64,000 nucleotides of DNA, from the NCBI GenBank assembly GCA_029008875.1, contig JAQXJP010000035.1, positions 62,001-126,000 on the forward strand, in the 5' to 3' direction. The DNA is from Lachnospiraceae bacterium. Its GTDB lineage: Bacteria; Bacillota; Clostridia; Lachnospirales; Lachnospiraceae. Under the pieces are notes generated by a model, which did no database searches, was not told the origin of the DNA, and saw nothing but the letters and a program-made list of their open reading frames with translations. This document shows, in pieces, positions 3,201-53,254 of the stretch (positions are counted from its first letter, which is position 1; each line of letters begins with the position of its first letter). The position numbers and the translations under genes are program-made.

Positions 3201-3243
3201 AAAAACAAAAAACGCCCAAAGCCACCTTCCATGACTTAGGGCG
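3201..3243 (-). terminator. T-box-controlled intrinsic terminator
   Basis: On the minus strand CGCCC(T)AAG pairs with CTTTGGGCG (one T-T mismatch), followed by TTTTTTGTTTTT. The stem is alternative to the antiterminator containing the T-box, so it is conditional on tRNA-Pro charging. Confidence 0.85.
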
Positions 3244-3470
3244 AATATATACATATCCGTGATACCACCTAAATTCAGCCTGCCTTGCGGCATAACTGCA
3301 CTCTGCTCAGCCGACGTTGTCGATTGATCGTCCATGATAACGGGAACATCCGATACAGGTTCATCCCTGTACTGCTCGCAGGTAGGTTCAGCACGCATCC
3401 GCCGAGAGCTTGCACCCACCGCTCTCTCTCTGAAGACTTGCTCATGCTTACTATTCTGTTCAACGCATTC
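3201..3470 (-). promoter_or_regulatory. T-box riboswitch leader of proS
   Basis: The minus-strand leader carries the conserved T-box AGGTGGTATCACGG (3257-3270), which pairs with the free CCA end of uncharged tRNA. An intrinsic terminator follows (3201-3243). Further upstream, a stem-I-like segment with GGTGGGTGCAAGC precedes TGAA-CCT-ACC, so the candidate specifier codon is CCU (3384-3386), matching proline. The T-box and terminator are certain. The specifier assignment is inference from the position of the GAA-codon-ACC pattern. Confidence 0.88.
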
Positions 3471-3476
3471 AAAAAC

Positions 3477-20656: not shown

Positions 20657-20702
20657 TATTTGTTACGGAATTATCCGTCACTTCCCCATCTCTTGCATGA
20701 TT

Positions 20703-20845
20703 ATCTATTACGCTTATCCATTGCGCTTATCTCTTACGCTTATCTCTTGCGCTTATCTCTTGCGCTTATCTCTCGCGTCTATCTCTCGCGTCTATCTGTT
20801 GCGCCTATCTCTTGCGCCTATCTGTTACGCCTATCTCTTGCAATA
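20703..20845. repeat. 13-bp tandem repeat array, 11 units
   Basis: Starting at 20703, the word TATC recurs exactly every 13 bases to 20833, giving eleven units of consensus TATCTCTTGCGCT (plus strand). Substitutions fall mainly at positions 6-8 and 12-13. The array fills the gap between hypB and the flavoprotein gene. Because 13 is not a multiple of three, the unit is read in all frames, and the short plus-strand ORFs here are by-products. Confidence 0.9.
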
Positions 20846-20862
20846 ATCTATTTTCTATCGCA

Positions 20863-21537
20863 TTAACTATTCTTGTAGTTCCTCACCTCTGTGCGAATCC
20901 AGTCCGCCCACTCGTCAAAACCCTCCCCGGTCTTGGCAGACACAAAGATCACCTTTGCATTGGGATTCAGATTCAATATCCGCTCCTTCACCGCCTCCTT
21001 GGAGAAATCATCGAAGACGCACAGTGTATCACATTTGTTGATCAATACCACGTCACAGATGGAGAACATCAGCGGATATTTTAGCGGCTTATCATCCCCC
21101 TCCGGCACGGACAAAATCATTGCGTTTTTGGTACTCCCTGTATCAAATTCCGCCGGGCAAACCAGATTGCCCACATTCTCAAGCACCACAAAATCCAAAT
21201 CTTTGGTCCCGAACTCATGGATTCCCTGGCGGGTCATATCCGCATCCAGATGGCACATTCCACCGGTGTGAATCTGAATGGCGCGAACCCCTGTCTCGAT
21301 AATTGCCTGTGCGTCCACATCCGAATCAATGTCCGCCTCCATGATGCCAATCTTCATCTCATCCTTCAGCATGGAAATCGTCCGCTTCAGCGTGGTGGTC
21401 TTGCCGGCCCCCGGCGAGGACATCAGGTTCAACAGGAATGTCCCGTCTGCCTTCAACTCCTCCCGCAAGCGGTTCGCATCCGCGTCGTTGTCTTCAAAGA
21501 TGCTTCGCTTTACTTCAATCACCTTAAAATCTTTCAT
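20863..21537 (-). CDS. hypB: Hydrogenase/nickel maturation GTPase HypB
   Basis: This 224-residue SIMIBI-class GTPase supports nickel insertion. Walker A is MSSPGAGKTT, the switch region includes EADIDSD, the metal/dimer motif is GGMCHLDADM, and the base-specificity motif is INKCDT. It lacks the long His-rich N-terminal tail of some HypB proteins. It heads the hypB-flavoprotein-hypA group and has a clear promoter with flanking palindromes upstream. The client nickel enzyme is not in the window. Confidence 0.93.
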   Translation of the reverse strand: MKDFKVIEVKRSIFEDNDADANRLREELKADGTFLLNLMSSPGAGKTTTLKRTISMLKDEMKIGIMEADIDSDVDAQAIIETGVRAIQIHTGGMCHLDADMTRQGIHEFGTKDLDFVVLENVGNLVCPAEFDTGSTKNAMILSVPEGDDKPLKYPLMFSICDVVLINKCDTLCVFDDFSKEAVKERILNLNPNAKVIFVSAKTGEGFDEWADWIRTEVRNYKNS

Positions 21538-21564
21538 TCTTGCCCCCTATGTCGTCTCTGCCAC

Positions 21565-21694
21565 TTGTGGACATACCACAGTATTTTTTGAGTTTTCTTT
21601 CTATAAATAAAATACACGGAAATCACAATATTGTCAATTTCTTTCAAGTGTGTCCTTTTTCGATCACCAACCGTCTTCTGTGGTATGACCACAG
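21565..21694 (-). promoter_or_regulatory. hypB promoter flanked by two copies of a 17-bp palindromic site
   Basis: The promoter TTGACA (21632-21637), 17 bases, TATTTT (21609-21614) is read on the minus strand. Site 1 at 21565-21581 reads CTGTGGTATGTCCACAA on the minus strand. Site 2 at 21678-21694 reads CTGTGGTATGACCACAG on the plus strand. Fifteen of 17 bases agree, and the sites lie in opposite orientation on either side of the promoter. This looks like a two-site operator with possible looping; no known regulator motif is recognised. Confidence 0.6.
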
Positions 21695-21892
21695 ACCAGT
21701 TTTGCATTTGGTTGTGGAAAATTGTCTCGGAAAATATCATATGACAGTAAGAAATAATACTATAAATGATATTATACATTATCTGATTCAGATTATCTTG
21801 TAACATTGTGCACAACTATATCTTCATCCCTTTATATACTTTTACTAAAGTCATTTCTGTATATCGGACTTTTCCTTTTCACACACCATTCT

Positions 21893-22226
21893 ACTGGCCA
21901 TTTCCCGGCTCCAGTCTCGGTTTTTACTAACGATTTTTCCTCCCTACCACCGTTCCGTTAGTAATTTCAAGGCCCAAGTCTCGGATTTTACTAACGTTCC
22001 TCCCTCCCTGCCACCGTTCCGTTAGTAATTTTCCGGCTCCGGTCTCAGATTTTACTAATGATTCCCCCTCTCTGCCGCCATTCGTTAGTAATTTCCCGGC
22101 TCCGGTCTCGGATTTTACTAATGATTCTCCCTCTCTGCCACCGTTCCGTTAGTAATTTCTCGGCTCCGGTCTCAGATTTTACTAATGATTCCCCCTCTCT
22201 GCCGCCATTCGTTAGTATTTTCTCAG
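21893..22226. repeat. 63/64-bp tandem repeat array with hairpin-forming units
   Basis: The word GTTAG recurs at 21957, 22021, 22084, 22148 and 22211, with spacings of 64, 63, 64 and 63, so a 127-bp double unit is also repeated. Each unit contains TTAGTAA and TTACTAA about 25-30 bases apart, a 7-bp inverted repeat enclosing CCGGCTCCGGTCTCGG. ORFs across it are repetitive and not convincing. It lies between the hydrogenase terminator and the hypB promoter region. Confidence 0.88.
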
Positions 22227-22307
22227 TTTCTTCGAATCTTCCCCGACAACTTCTGCGCCTCCCCTTCTCCAAGGCATAAAAATTCCTTTTGGCCCGAGTG
22301 CCTAGAA

Positions 22308-22341
22308 AAAAGAAAAAAGAGACTGTAAAACAGTCTCTTTT
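22308..22341 (-). terminator. Intrinsic terminator after the [FeFe] hydrogenase gene
   Basis: GAGACTG-TTTTA-CAGTCTC on the minus strand is followed by TTTTTTCTTTTTTC. The mirrored A/T flanks make it potentially bidirectional. It is about 165 bases after the hydrogenase stop. Confidence 0.85.
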
Positions 22342-22365
22342 CAAGGTATCACAATTCACATAGCC

Positions 22366-22475
22366 CTTTTCGAATATCTCTATTATCCCTATTCAAATAT
22401 CCTATTATCCCTATCCGAATATCCTATTATCTCTATTCGAATATCCTATTATCTCTATTCGAATATCCCTATTTT
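22366..22475. repeat. 22-bp tandem repeat array, five units
   Basis: The word AATAT recurs at 22373, 22396, 22418, 22440 and 22462, with spacings of 23, 22, 22 and 22. The consensus is close to ATTCGAATATCCTATTATCTCT. It lies in the 3' untranslated region of the hydrogenase gene, between its stop codon and its terminator, so it is transcribed. Confidence 0.85.
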
Positions 22476-31137: not shown

Positions 31138-32943
31138 ATGATAAATCATACCAAAATCGAACCGCAACTGCAAAATGCATTGAAAGCCACTCCCCGGGAA
31201 TTAATTCAGTCCCCCGAGCTCGCCTTCGGAAGCTCCACCGGGGTGAATGCCGTCCCAGAGTGGGATGTCATATTGCGCTACTCCGGGGAATGGGACAACA
31301 TACAATCAGCACTTCCGGAAATGGAATACACCCTGCTGTTGGGTCAATACGCCATCGCCAGACTCACGGAGCAGGAACTGTATTCCATCAGCACTCTCCC
31401 CCAAATACTCTTTGTGGAGAAAACAAAGCGTTTCTACTACGAACTCTACCACAATAAGGATCTCTTTCATTCGCCGGATACCCTCCGGGTGCAACAGCAA
31501 TCCACCTCCCTCTCCGGCCGCGGAGTCCTGGTGGCCATCATCGACTCCGGCATAGACTACTTCCATCCGGATTTCCGCAATTCCGACGGCACCACCCGCA
31601 TCGTGAAACTTTGGGACCAAAATCTCTCCCCCGATCCGTCCCGGGATTTTTTCTCCCCCGAGGGCTACCGTCTCGGGGTGGTTTTTGACGCCCAACACAT
31701 CAACCGGGCTCTTTCGGCGCCCACAGCACAGGAATCCCTGGCCATCTGCCCCAGCACGGACCGCTCCGGCCACGGCACCTTTGTGGCCGGGGTGGCTGCC
31801 GGGAACGGCTCCTCCTCCGCCGGCATTTTTCGCGGGGTGGCTTACGAAGCCGATTTGTTGGTGGTGAAAGTGGAATCCGCCTCTTTGCAGACGGACACCG
31901 GAACCGGCTCTCTGATGCAGGCCATCGACTTTTGCGTCCGGGAGAGCATAAGGCGGGGCCAGCCCCTCTCCATCAATCTGAGCTACGGAAATTCCTACGG
32001 TTCCCACGCCGGAACCTCCCTGTTGGAAAAATACATCGACAGCATCTTTGACTTTGCCAAATGCAGCATCTCCGTGGGTTCAGGAAACGAGGGAGCCGCC
32101 CCGGGCCACACCGGCGCTGACCACACGGTCCGGGGGCGCAACGAGCTTTTCATCACCGATTTTGTGACCTCTCTCTCGGTGCAGCTTTGGAAAAACTATT
32201 TGACCGACATCAACCTGGAAATCCTAACCCCCTCCATGGAAGCCCTCTATGTCACAAACATGCCCGGTGTCTCTCGCTATCGCATCGGAAATACCACCCT
32301 TCTTGTGGCATATGGTGAGCCCACGCCCTACAGCCCCTTCCAGGAAATCTACATGGAATTCTTCCCGGATTCCTCCTATCTGGCTCCGGGAATCTGGCAG
32401 TTTGCGGTCAACTCCACCGGGAGCCGGGATCCCGCCTATGAATTGTGGCTTCCGGTGGAATCCGCCATCTCCGGTTCCGCTGCCTTTTTGCAACCGGATC
32501 CCTACCTCACTCTGACCATCCCCTCCTCCTCCACCGGATGTATCACCGTGGGCGCATACGACTCTGCCACCGATACCTACGCTCCTTTTTCCGGCAGGGG
32601 TGAGTTTCGCCAAGCCCAGACAGGTCAGGCTCCCCGCCTCCCTTGGAGTGCCCATCCCCAAAAGCCGGATCTGGTGGCTCCCGGCGTGGAGATCACCTCC
32701 TGCGCTGTGGGCGGGGGCTACACCCAGCGAACAGGCACCTCCATGGCCACCCCCTTCGTGGCCGGCTCTGCGGCCCTGCTCATGCAATGGGGCATCGTGG
32801 AGGGCAACGATCCCTTCCTCTACGGGGAAAAACTCAAAGCCTACCTCTGCAAGGGAGCGCGTCCCCTTCCCGGTTTTTCCCAGTATCCCAACCCCCAGGT
32901 GGGCTGGGGCGCACTGTCCCTTGCGGACAGCTTTCCTTCCTGA
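31138..32943 (+). CDS. Csp-like subtilisin-family (S8) serine protease
   Basis: The 601-residue protein has an N-terminal prodomain-like segment (about 1-120) and no signal peptide. The catalytic triad is intact: Asp in VAIIDSGIDYFHPDF, His in RSGHGTFVAGVAAG and Ser in GTSMATPFVAGSAALL, with the oxyanion Asn in GSGNEG. A jelly-roll-like insertion of roughly 150 residues lies between the Asn and Ser motifs. This layout matches the clostridial CspA/B/C germination proteases, of which CspB is the active form that cleaves pro-SleC. The ribosome site is weak (GGAAGT directly before the ATG). No sleC or partner csp gene is nearby. Confidence 0.87.
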   Translation: MINHTKIEPQLQNALKATPRELIQSPELAFGSSTGVNAVPEWDVILRYSGEWDNIQSALPEMEYTLLLGQYAIARLTEQELYSISTLPQILFVEKTKRFYYELYHNKDLFHSPDTLRVQQQSTSLSGRGVLVAIIDSGIDYFHPDFRNSDGTTRIVKLWDQNLSPDPSRDFFSPEGYRLGVVFDAQHINRALSAPTAQESLAICPSTDRSGHGTFVAGVAAGNGSSSAGIFRGVAYEADLLVVKVESASLQTDTGTGSLMQAIDFCVRESIRRGQPLSINLSYGNSYGSHAGTSLLEKYIDSIFDFAKCSISVGSGNEGAAPGHTGADHTVRGRNELFITDFVTSLSVQLWKNYLTDINLEILTPSMEALYVTNMPGVSRYRIGNTTLLVAYGEPTPYSPFQEIYMEFFPDSSYLAPGIWQFAVNSTGSRDPAYELWLPVESAISGSAAFLQPDPYLTLTIPSSSTGCITVGAYDSATDTYAPFSGRGEFRQAQTGQAPRLPWSAHPQKPDLVAPGVEITSCAVGGGYTQRTGTSMATPFVAGSAALLMQWGIVEGNDPFLYGEKLKAYLCKGARPLPGFSQYPNPQVGWGALSLADSFPS

Positions 32944-33485
32944 CCGTAGCCCTGCCATACAACCTCCCCCTGCCTGTCCCCGACTCCCACCGTGGCCCCC
33001 CTGCCTTGCCCTCCGGCAGCCTCCTTGCGAAACCTATTTGTTCCATCTTGTTTTCTGACGGCTTGCCTGTGCTTCTCTCCATACTTACTGTCCGCCAAGA
33101 CGTGGACACCGCGGCGTCTTTGTTTGCCTGGGACGGAGTAAGGCTTCGAACACTAACTGGCTCTAAGACGTACCGTCCACTTCTTTTATGAGAAAAACCG
33201 CGGCTGTGGAACTCCCTTCGGTCAAACAGGTCCTCGCCGCGGTGGTATCAGTGTCCGGGCACGTCAAGAGCCAGTAAGTATTCTGCAGAAATACTCCGTC
33301 CCGGGCAAACGAAGGCGTCGAGGTGTTCACAGGTTGTCGTACAGTAATAAGAAGCACAGGCCGCGCCTAGAAAACCACGATTCACAAAGCGGTTTCGCAA
33401 GGAGGCTGCCGGAGGGCAAGGCAGGGGGCCGCGGTGGGAATGCCGGGAACTGGCAGTGTGGGGGAAGCTGTATGACAGGCCTGCA
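32944..33485 (-). repeat. Giant palindromic element 1 with conserved core
   Basis: The interval between the protease stop and the permease terminator is one long imperfect inverted repeat centred near 33215. The outer arm 32984-33029 (tcccaccgtgg...ctccttgcg) is nearly the exact reverse complement of 33394-33438, and pairing continues through the inner arms 33061-33178 and 33245-33370. The apex stem is ACCGCGG/CCGCGGT (33198-33204, 33237-33243). Core motifs on the minus strand: GGAGTATTTCTGCAGAA (33281-33297), GAGGACCTGTTTGA (33222-33235), GAGTTCCACAGCCGCG (33199-33214) and CTTAGAGCC followed by TCGAAGCCTTACTCCG (33134-33167). The same motifs in the same order occur in element 2. ORFs inside are fragmentary. 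Confidence 0.85.
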
Positions 33486-33542: not shown

Positions 33543-34970
33543 TTAAACCACCAGGAAGAACTTGATGAGGAAGATTGCGGAAATCACATAGGTGAGAACG
33601 GAAACTTCCTTTGCCTTTCCTGTGAAAAGCTTGATGACAACATATGAAATCATACCGATACCAATGCCGTGTCCGATGGAACCGGAAATCGGCATAGCGA
33701 TGAGCATCAATGTCACCGGTACAAGCTGGGACATATCGTCAAAGTTGATCTTCTTGAGACCACCGAGCATCAATACACCCACATAGATCAATGCGGAAGA
33801 AGTAGCCGCTGCCGGGATGATTGCTGCAATCGGAGCAATGAAGATACATGCCAAGAACAGGATACCTGTGATGAGTGCGGTAAGTCCTGTACGTCCGCCG
33901 GCCTCAACACCGGAAGCGGACTCAATGAAAGTAGTTACGGTAGAAGTACCGGTCATAGAACCAACGGTTGTTCCGATTGCATCGGACAACAGTGCTTCCT
34001 TCATCTTGGGCATATCTCCCTTCTCGTCAACCATTCCTGCACGGGATGCGGTACCAACCAAAGTTCCGATGGTATCGAACATATCGATGATGCAGAAGGT
34101 GATCACAAGGGTGATGACCGTGAACCAGCCGATGCTGAACAAGGTTGCGAAATCAAACTTGAACAATGTGGTAGCTACCATATCTGCGAAAGGCGGAATG
34201 AAGGATGCGGATGCGAGGGAAGCAAAAGGATTGGTTCCCAGGAACACAAACTCTCCGATCCAGTACACCACGCTGGCAATCAGCATTCCGAGAATTACGG
34301 ATGCCTTAACTCCCTTGTGGGAGAGGATAACGATTGCAAAGAATCCGATGAACATGGTGACAACAGTGAGCACCATTGCCGCATATCCGTCATCTCCCAT
34401 GCTTGACTTTGCAAGACTTGGAGTCAATGCTCCGAAGAAATCTCTCATGACATAGAACGGTCCGCCGGTGGAGGAATAGATTCCCGCATTTGATCCGAGA
34501 CCGATATTCAAAAGCATCAAACCGATTGCCGGTGCAATACCGAGACGAATGCCCAGTGGAATTGCCTCAACAATCTTGTCGCGGATATTGAGCACAGACA
34601 GAATCAGGAAAATGATACCTTCGATAAGGATAATTCCGAGAGCTGCCTGGAAAGACACAACATAGCTGGTTCCGGTGATTGCCGCAATATTTGCGACAAC
34701 AACTGCGAAAAAGCTGTTGAGTCCCATACCCGGTGCAAGCGCGAATGGTTTATTTGCCAAAAATGCCATACATACCATCGCAATAAATGAGGCAATACAG
34801 GTTGCCAGGAACACACCGTTCCACAACGGACTTCCCACGTCAAAACCGGTTAACAGGTTCGGGTTCAGGGCGATGATGTAAGCCATCGTCATGAAAGTGG
34901 TGAGACCTGCAACGATTTCCGTCTTCACCGTTGTGTTGTTTTCTTTGAGCTTAAATACTTTTTCCAACAT
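33543..34970 (-). CDS. NCS2-family purine base permease (guanine/hypoxanthine or adenine type)
   Basis: The 475-residue protein has about 12-14 membrane helices and the N terminus KTEIVAGLTTFMTMAYIIALNP typical of the AzgA/PbuG subgroup that imports purine bases by proton symport. The signature GMGLNSFFA and the TSTVTTFIES region contain residues used for substrate binding in the group. It lies downstream of the pur genes, fitting purine salvage beside synthesis. I see no purine riboswitch in its 108-base leader. Confidence 0.93.
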   Translation of the reverse strand: MLEKVFKLKENNTTVKTEIVAGLTTFMTMAYIIALNPNLLTGFDVGSPLWNGVFLATCIASFIAMVCMAFLANKPFALAPGMGLNSFFAVVVANIAAITGTSYVVSFQAALGIILIEGIIFLILSVLNIRDKIVEAIPLGIRLGIAPAIGLMLLNIGLGSNAGIYSSTGGPFYVMRDFFGALTPSLAKSSMGDDGYAAMVLTVVTMFIGFFAIVILSHKGVKASVILGMLIASVVYWIGEFVFLGTNPFASLASASFIPPFADMVATTLFKFDFATLFSIGWFTVITLVITFCIIDMFDTIGTLVGTASRAGMVDEKGDMPKMKEALLSDAIGTTVGSMTGTSTVTTFIESASGVEAGGRTGLTALITGILFLACIFIAPIAAIIPAAATSSALIYVGVLMLGGLKKINFDDMSQLVPVTLMLIAMPISGSIGHGIGIGMISYVVIKLFTGKAKEVSVLTYVISAIFLIKFFLVV

Positions 34971-48557: not shown

Positions 48558-49040
48558 GCCCTCATTTCCCTCACGCTTTGGCGGACGCACCGCACCCCGG
48601 TGGGGGGATAGTTCAAAAAAGCATGATTTTATAGCACTTGCGTTTTGACTTCTTCGATGATATTTGTCCGCCCAAATATGGACACGACCTACGGGATGTA
48701 CGCGGCAGGCGGAATATTTCTGCAGACGTATTAGCGGCTCTGCGCGACGGCTTAGCCTTGTGGCGCGAGCGAGGACCTGTTTGAGCTCGGCGCGTATATC
48801 TGATAGAACGCCTAAAGCGCGAGTTCCGCAGCCGCGCCGATAAGACAAGGCTAAGGCAGCGCTTAGAGCCGGTTTACGTCGAAGCCTTATTCCGACTGCC
48901 GTGTACATCCCGTAGGTCGTGTTCATATGTGTTCGTACAAATAATTGAAGCCAAAACGCAAGTGCTTAAAATCTATGCCTTTTCTCAAATCCCCCCACCG
49001 GGGTGCGGTGCGTCCGCCAAAGCGTGGGGGAAATGAGGTG
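48558..49040 (+). repeat. Giant palindromic element 2 with conserved core
   Basis: The whole interval is one inverted repeat centred at 48800. The outer arm beginning near 48562 (catttccctcacgctttggc...) is almost exactly the reverse complement of the one ending near 49036, through ACCCCGGTGGGGGGAT. Pairing continues through CACTTGCGTTTTG and ACACGACCTACGGGATGTAC to CTTAGCCTTGT. The apex stem is GGCGCG/CGCGCC (48762-48767, 48833-48838). Core motifs on the plus strand are GGAATATTTCTGCAGAC (48711-48727), GAGGACCTGTTTGA (48771-48784), GAGTTCCGCAGCCGCG (48821-48836), CTTAGAGCC (48862-48870) and TCGAAGCCTTATTCCG (48879-48894). It ends 9 bases before the pyrC stop codon. Confidence 0.88.
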
Positions 49041-53040: not shown

Positions 53041-53234
53041 CAATTATCGATTGCATTCACAGAATCGAAAACGATAGCTCCCCATCTTGCGATGACAGTC
53101 ATAGGGTTGTTCACCCTATGCCCAAGAGGACACCTGCAGAATTGTGCCCCTTTCGGCGTTCCTCCCTTTCAACTATGCTCATCTGCGACTGCCGCATCCC
53201 ATAGAATACTGATAATTCACGCAACCTCTATCTT
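53013..53234 (-). promoter_or_regulatory. Lysine riboswitch (L box) of dapA
   Basis: The minus-strand leader shows the L-box landmarks in order: GATAGAGGTTGCG (53221-53233), ATTATCAGTA, GTTGAAAGGGAGGAACGCCGAAAGGG and the closing GGGGAGCTATCG (53074-53085). The terminator follows. Lysine binding should stop transcription of dapA-dapB-nfo-pyrC. Recognition is by conserved motifs against the known L-box pattern; no covariance search was run. Confidence 0.85.
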
Positions 53235-53254
53235 CTATTCATTTGACTTTGCTT

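Follow-up and report, generated by a model that had tools for sequence, protein, structure and literature searches.

A patchily distributed foldback element with a kernel shared across phyla lies between pyrF and pyrC in a Lachnospiraceae genome

Dispersed palindromes are usually lineage-specific. The described systems closest to the element reported here are the REP sequences and REPINs with their Y1 enzymes (RAYT, TnpA-REP), MITE-like foldback elements and the large structured bacterial RNAs collected in Rfam. The element was found in a window of 64,000 nucleotides from a Lachnospiraceae bacterium and resembles each of these in part. Like REP/REPIN, it consists of dispersed intergenic palindromes with a GC-closed apex hairpin and probable single-strand folding, and some copies of the host genome end in REP-like ends that also flank a Y1 gene. 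Like MITEs, it is non-autonomous and multi-copy with inverted-repeat ends, three copies in one other genome (G256) having identical ends, and it shares with the large structured RNAs a long folded unit and conserved internal loops. Judged from sequence, there is about an even chance that it is a dispersed non-autonomous foldback element of which a folded single strand, most likely DNA, is recognised by a putative trans-acting factor.

Two foldback elements in the window

The element under study (E2) occupies positions 48560..49038 (+ strand), between pyrF (TIGR02127; 47539..48471, -) on its left and a pyrC-type dihydroorotase gene (TIGR00857; 49050..50378, -) on its right. The inverted repeat of about 480 bp that the first-pass annotation had placed between these two genes was recovered as a single hairpin, with nested arms of 50 nt (98% complementary), 56 nt (88%), 37 nt (81%) and 27 nt (81%), all within 48560-49038. 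The outermost left arm (48560..48609, +) is private to E2 within the host genome and is 98% complementary to the outermost right arm (48989..49038, +). Folded as RNA, the + strand reaches -322.8 kcal/mol compared to -164.9 +/- 5.8 for shuffles (n=100, none as low; z -27), and the - strand gives a z of -22. Within the hairpin, a core at 48710..48894 (+) is matched with 74.5 bits by the covariance model R1, which was built from the kernel-pattern sites of the window's genome. The kernel itself (48771..48836, +) is made up of GAGGACCTGTTTGA, a central hairpin and GAGTTCCGCAGCCGCG.

A second copy (E1) is located at 32997..33428 (-), between a subtilase gene (Peptidase_S8 with a CspB prodomain; 31138..32943, +) on its left and, convergent with it, a Xan_ur_permease gene (33543..34970, -) on its right. 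Its core (33134..33298, -) matches R1 with 197.5 bits, and its kernel was located by the kernel pattern search at 33199..33235 (-). The motif GGAATATTTCTGCAGA is found at 48711 (+) in E2 and, with 1 mismatch, at 33282 (-) in E1 (chance expectation 0.04 per window), while GAGTTCCGCAGCCGCG is found at 48821 (+) in E2 and, again with 1 mismatch, at 33199 (-) in E1 (0.03 per window). E1 is the second palindrome which had been said to carry the same motifs in the same order on the opposite strand. Alone among 16 copies compared, E1 has its kernel region flipped relative to the outer arms.

The first-pass annotation had named a match to a known Rfam family as an argument against its reading. Rfam release 15, used at the gathering threshold on the window and 20 related loci, returned only T-box, lysine riboswitch and tRNA matches, and permissive scans of E2, E1 and sets of five and eight loci gave sub-threshold matches only. 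MIR5048 overlaps one related element (L108) with 24.8 bits, compared to a gathering score of 160. Among the openly accessible published papers searched, none contained the kernel strings in this sense, the matches being unrelated sequences. The T-box leader (3234-3472, -) and lysine riboswitch (53067-53238, -) of the window are ordinary. The window also holds three neighbouring tandem arrays, at 20688-22473, with unit lengths of 13, 64 and 22 bp.

Copies in the host genome and relatives in other phyla

The kernel pattern matched the host genome at 15 sites; 59 other genomes scanned alongside had no match. R1 gave 20 matches in the host genome, among them E2 and a copy from which most of the middle is deleted (L041). 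These look like about 18 physical copies, with the contig-end pairs C13/C36 and C22/C37 each merged as one, and the genome contains one more REP-bounded palindrome (L164) that has lost the kernel. In the genus, R1 matched once in each of the genomes G016 and G073, giving carriers in 2 of 61 other genomes (3 of 62 with the host), and a similar kernel pattern gave carriers in 2 of 146 other genomes of an order sample (3 of 147 with the host).

A wider pattern, GAGGACCTGTYTGAN{7,37}RAGTTCCRCAG, run on species genome contigs, matched 69 stretches grouped into 37 genomes, where rough arithmetic predicts about 0.1 chance matches. According to their record titles, the carriers include Lachnospiraceae and Eubacterium among the Bacillota, Prevotella and Bacteroidaceae among the Bacteroidota, and also Betaproteobacteria, Gammaproteobacteria (HTCC2207, MOLA455), Coriobacteriia, groups of Patescibacteria, and Omnitrophota. 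The distribution is patchy over several phyla, with many copies in some genomes, and the kernel usually lies inside a long hairpin in relatives from several unrelated phyla. No gene family is common to the neighbourhoods of all 69 loci, the larger clusters being repeat copies or conserved loci. Viral contigs and phages gave no match to the element, and four plasmid records gave E values of 0.06-0.2 with 20-21 matching bases only. In three of these records the kernel sits in a hairpin, and their shorter kernel, used as a query in a Bacteroidales sample, was found at 16 sites in 5 of 119 genomes (reversed-pattern control, 0). In the Aureibacter plasmid pAT2 (L113), the short-kernel hairpin is located directly before two tyrosine recombinase genes. 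The first-pass annotation had made its reading depend on homologues outside this genome; relatives came from the genus, order, Bacteroidales and cross-phylum searches, and the multi-copy occurrence speaks for a mobile or dispersed element.

The kernel and the nature of the folded strand

The kernel of about 32 nt consists of GAGGACCTGTYTGA, a GC-closed mini-hairpin and GAGTTCCRCAG, and lies in an internal loop of the long hairpin, flanked by covarying stems. The apex reads GC-GNA-GC in 27 of 29 seven-base middles and GC-GNNA-GC in all six eight-base middles, one of which alone is GNRA, and it has NNA at 16 of 16 Bacteroidales sites. A peptide encoded in the kernel was ruled out, as the seven- and eight-base middles break any frame. 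Beside the kernel, stem positions 2-4 are paired in 97, 86 and 88% of 65 distinct elements, compared to 39-41% with re-dealt partners. Among 25 equal-length elements the covariation score was 0.464 (shuffles, 0.112 +/- 0.017) and 92.7% of the cells were paired (shuffles, 73.8%), and the covariation signal was lost when partners were slid by 1-3 columns. In the same set, pairs with both partners altered numbered nine, which does not stand out from the shuffles (mean 7.9, with 125 of 500 reaching this count), and the kernel helices, being invariant in it, are uninformative either way.

Across 74 copies from 33 genome groups, isolated mismatches read on the kernel strand comprise 46 G-T and 13 A-C; by genome group, G-T prevails in 17 and A-C in six, with 10 ties (p = 0.035). 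The bias is weaker in the host genome's own copies (70 vs 47) and opposite in E1 (G-T 3 vs A-C 7), a reversal that a strand rule would predict, since in E1 the kernel and the outer arms have opposite orientations. Besides G-T, mismatches of the G-A and T-T kinds are numerous. These comparisons support a core that is strand-specific, folded and under selection, for which the cross-phylum kernel sequence and the G-T/A-C asymmetry speak better than arm pairing does.

At 11 of 19 Bacteroidales, Ilyobacter and plasmid-type sites, and in none of 380 shuffles, complementary stretches form an interleaved pair some 49 nt past the kernel. The stretches, CTTGATC..GTTACTTTTG..GATCAAG..CAAAAGTAAC and variants, lie downstream of the kernel in loci L112, L173, L174, L177 and L181-L185, and as the linker of 0-2 nt was judged too short for both stems together, they may represent two alternative hairpins and not a pseudoknot. 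They are among the features that would suit a structured non-coding RNA, in which the transcript of the kernel strand would fold as a rod, bind protein at its internal loop and act in trans, the copies having spread by riding on repeats. The strand-specific mismatch bias and the preservation of the internal-loop sequence across phyla while the stems change point the same way, and U-U/T-T and G-A mismatches would also fit RNA. However, Rfam holds no such family at the gathering threshold, redundant copies are many per genome and the interleaved pair may, as noted, be read otherwise. Kernel orientation relative to genes is mixed, and one site has opposite orientations in different species, so that the strand cannot come from read-through transcription. 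We regard such an RNA as possible, though a good deal less than an even prospect.

As for the folded strand, single-stranded DNA is favoured with middling confidence and RNA is considered rather doubtful. DNA and RNA are equally compatible with the conserved kernel, with the G-T bias and with the mismatches of the G-A and T-T kinds. DNA would also fit the mixed orientation, the inversion in place described below and the short GC-stem hairpins, a kind reported in PMC10527192 as exceptionally stable in DNA form (CGCGAAGCG, for example). Relative to GC skew, kernel orientation is unbiased (8 vs 11), and capture on the lagging strand is therefore unsupported. Fourteen host copies have a mechanical ORF on each side, and in no case are the two ORFs divergent, although at least one such ORF, beside E2, is not the true gene.

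Dispersal, arm maintenance and relation to known systems

Signs of recent dispersal come from genome G256, where three near-identical copies with the same ends but different flanks lie within about 4.3 kb together with partial copies, and look recent; read by eye, their flanks show no obvious target duplication. A clean empty site was not obtained, the single same-genus genome compared having no alignable one. Genes for Y1_Tnp (PF01797) are present at close frequencies in 25 of 37 carriers and 87 of 147 order-sample genomes, and absent from 12 of the 37 carriers, including HTCC2207 and MOLA455, and from G256. Reverse transcriptase (RVT_1, PF00078) was found in 4 of 9 carriers, the window's genome having none, and the TnpB zinc domain (PF07282) in 2 of 9. 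As each is missing from some carriers, all three were rejected as universal partners, and among the enzymes tested none is consistent across carriers.

The host genome has two Y1_Tnp genes (L018 and L019), the former flanked by inverted copies of REP-like ends of the GGGACGTTCCTTTTGTCAC type. At least five complete palindromes of this genome, and one that is split between contigs, are bounded by such ends, as would be expected of giant REPINs mobilised by the host's REP-associated Y1 transposase. Yet most other copies, E1 and E2 included, lack these ends, and the ends also bound unrelated DNA; together with the carriers devoid of Y1_Tnp, this makes such mobilisation fail as a general account, and we consider it improbable, although it may apply to the REP-bounded subset. 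The other DNA bounded in this way (L162, C25:43964-45526; L163, C35:145722-146717) includes a gene and a tandem-repeat stretch. The product of that gene is presumably a glycoside hydrolase.

When each copy's two arms are matched to one another, 13 of 14 genome copies score 61-120 against a shuffled maximum of 30, while between copies 24 of 91 pairs exceed the shuffled 95% level, most clearly in the groups L030/L035, L004/L014 and L003/L006/L009. The earlier statement that outer arms pair with themselves and are unrelated between copies hence holds for most, a few groups being kin. Percent identity was dropped as a measure of arm kinship, shuffled arms scoring equally high. Both inversion signs of template switching are present, one in the kernel region of E1 and one in Lachnoanaerobaculum genomes, where a stretch of 6.3 kb is collinear except for a 188-bp element, which is inverted in place. 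The genes flanking the latter are, as we take them to be from their sequence, plsX and rnc. Template switching between long inverted repeats can, according to PMC8604942, homogenise arms and invert spacers without selection, and arm pairing alone is for this reason no proof of selection. This weakens the proposal that conserved loops with covarying stems denote a selected structure, for which kernel conservation across phyla and the mismatch asymmetry are the stronger evidence of selection. Unselected old quasipalindromes, kept perfect by template switching alone, would account for the spacer inversions and for arms that match inside a copy while mostly differing from one copy to another, but they leave the cross-phylum kernel conservation and the strand bias unexplained, are hard to square with the former, and are very improbable.

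For the dispersed foldback element favoured here, the following course of events may be envisaged. When single-stranded, most likely as DNA at the replication fork, the kernel strand would fold and be bound by the putative trans-acting factor, leading to dispersal of copies. Between dispersal events, template switching inside the hairpin would keep both arms alike and at times invert the middle, while selection would shield the unpaired bases of the kernel from being 'corrected'. Template switching combined with a selected kernel would explain why arms are paired within a copy and different between copies, and the element offers a natural system for separating arm homogenisation by template switching from selection on the middle. 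A multi-copy kernel that is almost letter-identical across phyla, with no consistent partner gene among those tested, also suggests a recognition event not named in the sources searched.

Set against the known systems, the large structured RNAs of Rfam differ in that the present elements match none of them at the gathering threshold and occur as many inverted, redundant copies per genome. Unlike in MITEs, it is the centre and not the ends that is conserved, the ends differing between most copies of one genome, and neither a target duplication (by eye, in the G256 copies) nor a parent transposase was found. Compared to REP/REPIN, the elements are hundreds of bases long, number 20 copies here rather than hundreds, exist in some carriers without any Y1_Tnp, and have a kernel kept across phyla. 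With confidence a little short of even, we tentatively place them in a cross-phylum foldback family of which one folded strand would be recognised by a putative host-encoded or other factor, in a mobile or RNA system that would be neither Y1/REP, nor TnpB, nor a retroelement.
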